Part shown: positions 2,589 to 7,193 of the stretch, in pieces
Numbering within the stretch: position 1 is the stretch's first letter
Layout: each line of letters starts with the position of its first letter
Assembly: GCA_031279255.1 (NCBI GenBank)
Contig: JAITIW010000048.1
Location: forward strand, 1 to 42,187
Length of the DNA: 42,187 nucleotides
Source: Puniceicoccales bacterium
Lineage (GTDB): Bacteria; Verrucomicrobiota; Verrucomicrobiia; Opitutales; JAIRLG01
Direction: 5' to 3'
Notes under the pieces: model-generated
Databases searched by the model: none
The model's input: the letters and a program-made list of their open reading frames with translations, nothing else
What the model was told of the DNA's origin: nothing
Program-made: the position numbers and the translations under genes

Positions 2589-3537
2589 CTAGAAAGATAC
2601 CGTCATACGAGCGCCGAGCCATGCGATGGATTTATGATTCGTGAGGTAATTGGCCAAGTTGTTATTCGAAACATGTTTGCTATTGGAATTGATATTATAG
2701 TGGATGCCAATAGCCGACTCCACATGTCCATTCGGACAGAAGCATAATTCAAAAGTACCACCGGCATAAGCATAACGATTTTTCTCACTCGTGAGGTTAC
2801 GAATCTCCAATGGCATCCCATTAATCTTTTGAATATTGCCCAATTTCCCCGTAAAGAAGCGCTTTGCGCGGACATATCCGCCATTTACCTGAGTAGCTAT
2901 TTTTAACAAAGGTATACCTATACGTGCCAAATCGAAGCCATAATCCACCTTTCCTTCTAGCGTATAGGCTTTGCAACGGATATCATAATAGGCAAAAACC
3001 GAAGGCGTAACAGGCTCGAAGCATTTACAAATCACACCGGCTCCGAATTCCCAAATATCATCACGCGTATCATAACCATTCTGATCGTCACGCCAGTAAT
3101 GGATATACTTGGCATTCGCGTCCAATATCCAATCATCGTTCAGTAAGTAGCGCAGACCAAATTGCGTCCGCGTCTCATCGAAATCGAGCGTCAAGGCACC
3201 TCCTTCTGGTTTTGTCTGAATGGGAACGCTGAGAAACGTATCGATATAAAGTTCATACTTCCCCAACGGCAGAGCAAAAGCATGCTCCGTTTGCAAACAA
3301 CGTTTACAGCGCTCATATCCGCGATAAAAATATCGCTGATTGTATAGGATAGAACCCTCATAATTGGATAGAACCCTCATAATTCCACCGAGCACAGAAG
3401 TCCTCGATGCACTTAAAGCCGTGACATTTTTGATGACCATCGGCGCAACTATCACCTGCACAGCCACACCCAGCCGTTCCTCCCCATAAAGCCGAGCAAC
3501 AGGCCCACATTGATATACCAATTCCAACACGTCTCAT
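2589..3537 (-). pseudogene. Frameshifted exported, probable outer-membrane barrel protein
   Basis: From ATG 3537 the frame encodes a signal peptide (MRRVGIGISMWACC, then ALWGGTAG) and a Cys-rich start, then stops at 3358-3360 after 59 codons. A perfect 19-bp tandem duplication (unit AATTATGAGGGTTCTATCC on the minus strand, about 3346-3384) causes the shift. With one unit removed, a single 309-residue ORF continues to 2589. The downstream part has alternating polar and aromatic stretches and ends in Phe, as outer-membrane barrels often do. A good promoter (3560-3588) and a G-rich ribosome site precede ATG 3537, supporting that start. The family is not recognised. It could be a pseudogene, a phase-variable gene or an assembly error. 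Confidence 0.75.
3346..3384 (-). repeat. Perfect 19-bp tandem duplication
   Basis: The minus-strand unit AATTATGAGGGTTCTATCC occurs twice back to back. Nineteen is not a multiple of three, so the copy shifts the frame of the exported-protein gene. Deleting one copy restores a continuous reading frame through the junction NYEGSI/LYNQ. Confidence 0.92.
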
Positions 3538-3559: not shown

Positions 3560-3588
3560 ATTCTAAAACAGGAGTTTTATCCTGTCAA
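3560..3588 (-). promoter_or_regulatory. Sigma70-type promoter for the exported-protein gene
   Basis: On the minus strand TTGACA (3583-3588) is followed by a 17-bp spacer and TAGAAT (3560-3565). The start codon ATG 3537 is 22 bp beyond the -10 box, with a G-run ribosome site between. The -35 and spacer overlap an ACAGGA/TCCTGT inverted repeat (3568-3573 with 3580-3585) that could serve as an operator. Confidence 0.75.
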
Positions 3589-3898
3589 TGCGAAATTTAC
3601 AATTTTTTTACAAAGTTCTTTTACAAAAAAATAGATTTTCTCCAAAATGACATTAAGACGTCCCCAATTGCAAATGAAGGATACTCATATGAGTAAGCGT
3701 TAACGGTTTGACGCTTGTCAAACGACGAAATTCTTCTGTCGATAAATCTTTTAAACTCAAATATCTCATACTTTTTTCTCTAAACAACTATCTCTTTATA
3801 TCACTTATTTTTCGTTTCGAAGGAAGTCTGGTGAACGACCCAAGATAAAGCCATCAAGAGAAGATAGCATCTCATCTTAAGCTCTTTTTTCAAAAATC
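3589..3898. other. Gene-free stretch with overlapping hairpins
   Basis: There is no coding region. Two mutually exclusive stems overlap: AAGCGT/ACGCTT (3695-3700 with 3711-3716) and GTTTGAC/GTCAAAC (3706-3712 with 3717-3723, loop GCTT). The stretch lies downstream of the minus-strand secreted-protein gene and upstream of the promoter at 3560-3588. No T tract follows the stems in the direction of transcription, so a classic terminator is not supported. Confidence 0.45.
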
Positions 3899-5251: not shown

Positions 5252-7054
5252 TCATCGAGTCAGCTTTTCTTGACATTTTTGAGCGAACTCACGATCACCT
5301 TCTCTTTCAGCTGCTTGGGCGTAATCGGATAGCACTTCACGATCAAAATCCCATGGAGCTCTTGGAACATCCAGCTCTCGGATCGCGCGGTAGACGCGTT
5401 CACAATTACCTTCATCTCGAAAGACAAAAGTTTGTTGCATACACTCAAGGTACTTTTGCTCTGGTTGACACTCATTTTGTAGTAAAGTTTCGAGTGCTTG
5501 AAATAATTTATCTCTAGTCCCGACGACAGGGCCAAATCCGTCTCGTAAATAGTCGAAATATCCACTCTGGTAGGTATGAGCACCTTGGGTCGTAACATTA
5601 TCAAACTGATAATAAATCACGGGACGCCTGAGCAAAGCCATCTCGAAGGCCGTCGATGAGTAATCGGTAATCATCACAGCTGATTCTAGAAAAACGTCTT
5701 GTATACTTCGGTTAAAACAAGTCACCTTTTCAATGCCTGGCAGTGTCCATTTACTTAAAAATTTACGCATAAGAGAGTGCGGGAAGAATATGATGCGGTA
5801 ACTGTATTTTTGAGCTAAGGCCGTCAGGCTTTTATCAGTTAAAAAGCCATTCCATTTTTCAAAATAATTCGTCCCTTGGAATGTCTTAAACATCTGATCA
5901 GCATTTTTTATTCCATCTGTTACGTCTTTGACATGTTTCCGCCATGTGGGCATGATTAAAATAGCCTTTTCAGGAAGTTTTTTGCCTTTGTTTTTTTTAG
6001 AAAACTCTCCGACTCTTCTGGCAAAATCTTTGGCATATCTCTGATTATCAGAACACCCCGGGTTGAGGTAACGATGCAATAAAGTATCATGGCGCGGAAG
6101 CCCCAGCATTTTCCCATGTGCCGGAAGAGTCTTGTAAGGCGTACCCTTACCGACGATACTATTGAATTCAGTGAATGTCGTGGTCACAAACAAATCCATT
6201 TCTTTGCCGTTAATCCATTCCGACATATCGTCTTTAATAACACCATGCTGCAAAAAGATGAAATGCTTAAAGCGCAAGAAATCAGGTCCGTAGCGTATCT
6301 TGAGCGCTTCAGCTGATTGCGACGAGATAATCTTCGAAGCTTTGTCGAGAATGGCCCTACAATCGTCAGCCACAAGCGCAGGCTTCTGGTCTTGTTTTAT
6401 CTCTTGTTTTAGGGCCAATAATTGAAATCCTTCTTTTGAAAGTTTGTTCCAGTAGGAATTGTCTTTACCATCGCCACCCATCTTGTTGATGGTGAAGTAG
6501 GGCGTAACATCACGTGAATGTTGTGTTCTTAGGAAACGATAAAAATGTTCGGCATTATCATCTCCTTCCGTACTGCGGTCTAGCAAAAGCCAAACATTCG
6601 CATTTTGTTCCGGATATTTTTCTCGCTTCAATCTTTCATAACGCGTCACGACATCTGGAATGTCGAAAACGTCTCTCAACGTTTCATTACCAAAAACATC
6701 TTTAAAATAACATGTCGTGCGGTTTACTTTAGCGGTCATACTTTTTACTCTTTCATAAGACACCAGCATATCGATAGCTTCTTGAGACCGTCCATCTTCA
6801 AGCTTGACGATATACTTTTTCTGAAAAAGAGGAGCAATTCTTTGGCCGTCTACTAAGATATTAAAGGTGTCTGGTAACCCTCTCGGGGTGAGAGGGAAAT
6901 AAGGATGGGGAAATTCCGAAATAGTGAAAAAAATTTCAGATTTGGCTGTGTCTACTTTTTGACAGCAAAAAACAGGAATAGCCGATAGTGAAGTTCCTAA
7001 GACTATCGACGCGCATAACGATAAAAATATCTGTTTTAGTTTTGTTTGATTCAT
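5252..7054 (-). CDS. CDP-glycerol glycerophosphotransferase-like protein with signal peptide
   Basis: A 600-residue protein. The C-terminal half matches the TagB/TagF family (PF04464). HGVIK at 270-274 corresponds to the family's WHG-K motif, MPTWR is at 368-372, and TDYSSTAFEMALL begins at 463. Known members move glycerol- or ribitol-phosphate from CDP-linked donors onto wall polymers at the inner face of the membrane. Oddly, the N-terminus is a signal peptide (KLKQ, then IFLSLCASIVLG, cleavage near Ala25), which would place the enzyme outside the cytoplasm or anchor it. I chose ATG 7054 because GGAGG (7062-7066) is seven bases upstream; ATG 7060 is too close. Residues 30-200 are unassigned. 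It is transcribed away from the neighbouring 1153-residue gene. Confidence 0.82.
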   Translation of the reverse strand: MNQTKLKQIFLSLCASIVLGTSLSAIPVFCCQKVDTAKSEIFFTISEFPHPYFPLTPRGLPDTFNILVDGQRIAPLFQKKYIVKLEDGRSQEAIDMLVSYERVKSMTAKVNRTTCYFKDVFGNETLRDVFDIPDVVTRYERLKREKYPEQNANVWLLLDRSTEGDDNAEHFYRFLRTQHSRDVTPYFTINKMGGDGKDNSYWNKLSKEGFQLLALKQEIKQDQKPALVADDCRAILDKASKIISSQSAEALKIRYGPDFLRFKHFIFLQHGVIKDDMSEWINGKEMDLFVTTTFTEFNSIVGKGTPYKTLPAHGKMLGLPRHDTLLHRYLNPGCSDNQRYAKDFARRVGEFSKKNKGKKLPEKAILIMPTWRKHVKDVTDGIKNADQMFKTFQGTNYFEKWNGFLTDKSLTALAQKYSYRIIFFPHSLMRKFLSKWTLPGIEKVTCFNRSIQDVFLESAVMITDYSSTAFEMALLRRPVIYYQFDNVTTQGAHTYQSGYFDYLRDGFGPVVGTRDKLFQALETLLQNECQPEQKYLECMQQTFVFRDEGNCERVYRAIRELDVPRAPWDFDREVLSDYAQAAEREGDREFAQKCQEKLTR

Positions 7055-7193
7055 ATCCATACCTCCATTATAGTAGCCCCAGCAAACTGGAGTCGGCAGG
7101 CAATATAGAAAATTACTTACTTGAGTCAAATACATTCGGGCTCGCTTTTAAGAGGAAAAAGTCTAAATTAGGGAAATAACTTGGGATTGGTAT

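Follow-up and report, generated by a model that had tools for sequence, protein, structure and literature searches.

According to a passage in PMC4022640 that cites Waite et al. (2001, 2003), expression of the pneumococcal capsule can be turned off by spontaneous tandem duplications, which revert; the loci named there are the type 3 capsule locus and cap8E and tts in serotypes 8 and 37. Where an insertion is nine bp long or shorter, the same paper gives a reversion frequency at or below about 1e-5. This kind of mutation, a short tandem-duplication frameshift which could reverse, is common and is known from the pneumococcal capsule genes. For termite-associated Verrucomicrobia, our literature searches found no report of phase variation.

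The stretch of DNA analysed here (the window) is 42,187 nucleotides of contig JAITIW010000048.1 from a Puniceicoccales bacterium (GCA_031279255.1), a draft genome of 68 contigs and 885 kb with a completeness of 93.6%. One gene of the window is split into a leader frame and a body frame by a perfect 19-bp tandem repeat. In our judgement an ordinary gene has here probably acquired a recent and real tandem-duplication frameshift, at a site where nothing points to an evolved switch. The relevant features are:

3560..3588 (-), sigma-70-type promoter-like site TTGACA-17-TAGAAT, matching 11/12 in a consensus scan
3358..3537 (-), leader frame of 59 codons and stop, with a signal-peptide-like start and a Cys-rich linker
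3366..3384 (-), first copy of the 19-bp tandem unit, coding strand AATTATGAGGGTTCTATCC
3378..3380 (-), ATG within the first repeat copy, in the body frame, preceded by TGTGCTCGGTGGAATT; a putative start
3347..3365 (-), second 19-bp copy, identical to the first
2589..3359 (-), body frame of 256 codons and stop, coding for a TorF-like porin-family protein according to translation and family alignment

The leader frame starts at the ATG at 3537 (-), with a G-rich ribosome-site-like GGGGGG 5' of it, and translates as MRRVGIGISMWACCSALWGGTAGCGCAGDSCADGHQKCHGFKCIEDFCARWNYEGSIQL*, 59 amino acids, before it is ended by the frameshift at the TGA at 3360-3358. The body frame, from 3359 to 2589 (-), has no internal stop and no further frameshift. 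The two frames are offset by one base and 19 is 1 modulo 3, so that one copy fewer puts leader and body in one frame. TRF describes the repeat as period 19, 2.0 copies, 100% matches, with a score of 76, the second highest within the window, and it is the window's only perfect repeat with a unit of more than 10 bp. The lesion is thus a perfect short duplication of 19 bp, not a multiple of three, within a coding frame. The first-pass annotation had described the promoter, ribosome site, signal peptide and Cys-rich start as sharing one frame and the remainder as lying in another, to be joined by removal of one copy; translation and the promoter scan agree with this, as they do with its statement that the gene is otherwise intact (no stop in 256 codons). 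Its coordinates needed slight adjustment: the duplication is present in the sequence, while the repeat proper occupies 3347-3384 and the stop of the 59 amino acid frame 3358-3360.

The body frame is open upstream as far as a GTG at 3530, giving 313 amino acids, and the gene could be expressed in another form, as a protein that starts from the ATG at 3380 or the GTG at 3530, lacks the signal peptide and differs in location or role. The ATG at 3380 is in frame, has GGTGG a few bases 5' and owes its position to the first repeat copy. However, the upstream frame does not resemble the start of the orthologue described below, and an alternative frame that stays open for about 50 codons is unremarkable. 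A product initiated at either codon would not be exported, and a beta-barrel-type protein lacking a signal peptide should not function in the cytoplasm. We regard this form of expression as highly improbable.

The repeat at 3347-3384 is not due to chance, which is excluded because, given the base composition of the genome's 815,897 readable bases, the expected number of perfect runs with a period of 19-300 is only about 3e-6. Over the same readable bases only 13 perfect tandem arrays with a period of at least 7 and a match run of 11 or more are present, and the match run of this repeat is among the six longest. Match run and period are here of equal length (19 = 19), which indicates an ancestor without microhomology at the duplication ends. 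It speaks against a real frameshift allele that such microhomology is usual for simple slippage, and that the assembly is a draft, so that an assembly error is possible. In the latter case the true sequence would have one copy, or the two-copy form would be a minority strain variant picked by the assembler. The fragmentation of the genome, the presence of exactly two perfect copies and the fact that only the one-copy form is seen elsewhere would all fit such an artefact, but a 38-bp repeat is far below ordinary read length and is normally resolved by assemblers, and there is no N run or ambiguous base at the site. We consider an artefact unlikely, and a real duplication the better account of the data.

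A scan of GTDB genomes identified a single close relative carrying the gene, the Puniceicoccales bacterium isolate Ncb351_bin30 MAG (contig JAITAG010000034.1, here L027). Its orthologue (L027:284-1201) is intact, in one frame and with a single copy of the 19-bp unit; it has KWDYEGSILYNQRYFYRG at the repeat site and reads ...EDFCSKWDYEGSILYNQRYFYRG... uninterrupted across it. The window body is 77% identical to the orthologue over 256 residues, and the leader was compared by eye with orthologue residues 1-53. In L027 a TTGACA lies about 45 bases before the start, and the upstream gene is apparently the same in both genomes, as judged by eye from its C-terminal residues, for which reason the loci look orthologous. 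With an intact orthologue at this locus that has a single copy and an unbroken frame, the state with one copy and one frame is very probably ancestral.

No tandem repeat was found anywhere in the L027 locus scanned, not even a partial one at the site. In 17 other family loci scanned there was no tandem repeat within or near the matched gene, the three or four short repeats present lying far off. No orthologue is present in the genus's three other genomes, and only one of these has distant paralogues, which leaves no within-genus comparison of copy number.

Differences between the body and the orthologue fall at codon positions 1, 2 and 3 in the numbers 41/28/125. With three methods dN was 0.14-0.16 and dS 1.28-2.2, a dN/dS of about 0.06-0.12. 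Purifying selection on the body has thus been strong, and has acted during most of the period that followed the split of the lineages; dN/dS averages over the whole time since divergence and gives no date for the duplication. It is the two identical copies, together with the lack of any other lesion, that point to a recent event, and the duplication is almost certainly recent.

The first-pass annotation had called the event recent or reversible, and the one-copy orthologue, the identical copies and the low dN/dS are all in line with its being recent. The same annotation had suggested that slippage between the copies could switch a surface protein on and off. Of this, the frame being restorable in principle stands, and the description as a surface protein is plausible; the idea of a switch is weakened by there being only two copies and no tract in the orthologue. 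A reversible phase switch, in which one copy means export and two copies mean off and in which the site is kept by selection for that use, would be compatible with the intact and constrained body, would have a direct precedent in the pneumococcal capsule genes, and would find company within the genus, where a capsule gene starts in tandem arrays. Against it, a single allele is known, the site carries two copies instead of the multi-copy tract of a slipped-strand contingency locus, no such tract is kept in L027 or in the matched gene of the other family loci scanned, and a lone two-copy duplication is what random mutation yields. Extrapolating from the frequency reported for insertions of up to nine bp, a 19-bp duplication would likely be a slow switch at best, and it may revert more often than that figure. 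An evolved switch at this site appears distinctly unlikely.

On the favoured reading, that of an ordinary recent mutation, the 19-bp segment around codons 52-58 was doubled once, and the probable cause is strand slippage or a comparable error during replication or repair. Translation that begins at the normal start then ends after 59 residues, and cells carrying the two-copy allele would presumably not export the outer-membrane protein. The frame would be regained on exact loss of one copy, for example by slippage, and the event should therefore be reversible in principle, at a modest rate.

The identity of the protein was approached through its relatives. No NCBIfam or Pfam model was above cut-off for the window protein (P0001) or its orthologue, and Pfam gave sub-threshold matches only for the body and the orthologue. 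P0001 matches a protein from a genome of the same order (L004) with an E value of 9.2e-12 over residues 6-256 at 27% identity. L004 in turn matches TIGR02001 (TorF putative porin) over 150 residues at 6e-8, with a score of 32.5, which is below the cut-off of 47.15. The link to TorF is thus transitive, as it runs through L004. The proteins have in common a YFYRG/YVYRG start, a full-length alignment and a signal peptide followed by a SEYVYRG-like first strand. A Cys-containing linker between signal peptide and first strand is extra in the orthologue and, by its leader sequence, in the window gene. An AlphaFold model built from only two orthologous sequences had a mean pLDDT of 27. The window protein is most likely a divergent outer-membrane barrel of the TorF-like family of probable porins, and the surface protein label is plausible on the same sequence grounds. 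The family with which its body aligns includes L004 and thereby a match to TIGR02001, whereas the window protein itself falls below the model cut-offs and has the additional Cys-rich linker after the signal peptide. A lipoprotein was considered, as the Cys ending GTAGC resembles a lipobox, but was rejected because the orthologue has no Cys there.

Other repeats were observed in these genomes. In the same genome as the window a Capsule_synth gene (PF05159), which sits after an ABC-transporter ATPase gene, starts inside a perfect array of three 11-bp units (L044:5638-5670, on G000:C16). In the genome of a sister species (G001) a 65% identical orthologue starts inside (ATGCGTC)x15 (G001:C109:6745-6849), with the first ATG in frame, and this array occurs nowhere else in that genome. 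In other relatives no orthologue of the capsule gene was found in a search at E 1e-30. A change of copy number in either array would be predicted to bring the first start codon into frame or take it out; the arrays could represent slipped-strand phase variation of the capsule, or possibly a repeat invading a gene junction. The capsule gene is a better switch candidate than the 19-bp duplication and a separate lead. The broader proposal that small-genome Puniceicoccales vary their cell surface reversibly through several frame-shifting tandem repeats, the 19-bp duplication and the capsule-start arrays among them, we hold to be very doubtful.

A six-copy AGCCACAG array (L058:10840-10888) reaches the end of contig G000:C30, the assembly breaking inside the array. 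A 57-bp repeat with GAAGAAGAG sub-repeats is found at L029:9977-10121, its units being multiples of three. A 12-bp repeat of two copies (L060:2210-2233) was set aside, since it keeps the frame; its 165 amino acid reading frame has no Pfam match. Within the window, positions 3645-3700, upstream of the promoter, are 82% identical to G000:C37:8609-8664, in a short frame (MRYLSLKDLSTEEFRRL...), and are possibly a repeat or a mobile-element remnant. Further along, window positions 5252-7135 hold a glycerophosphotransferase-type gene (PF04464, Glyphos_transf), of an enzyme family for the synthesis of teichoic-acid-like polymers, in a Puniceicoccales-related organism.

The split gene is a case of a short duplication silencing a constrained exported protein, which is still recoverable. 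Were sequencing reads to contain the one-copy as well as the two-copy form, this would amount to a simple surface switch, in a lineage of Verrucomicrobiota that is uncultured. For now it chiefly advises caution in annotation, as what looks like a pseudogene or an odd start call in a draft genome may reflect a duplication that is recent, revertible or artefactual.

With the simple-sequence contingency loci of Neisseria, Haemophilus and Campylobacter this locus shares the principle that gain or loss of a unit shifts the frame close to where a surface gene has its 5' end, but in those loci many short units are kept as a tract, while here there are two 19-bp copies and a relative without a tract. 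In the pneumococcal capsule duplications, switching was seen in cultures, whereas here there is one assembled allele of a porin-like gene in an uncultured organism; in both, a short, non-repetitive stretch within a reading frame is doubled once, which breaks the frame, and exact loss of a copy restores it.
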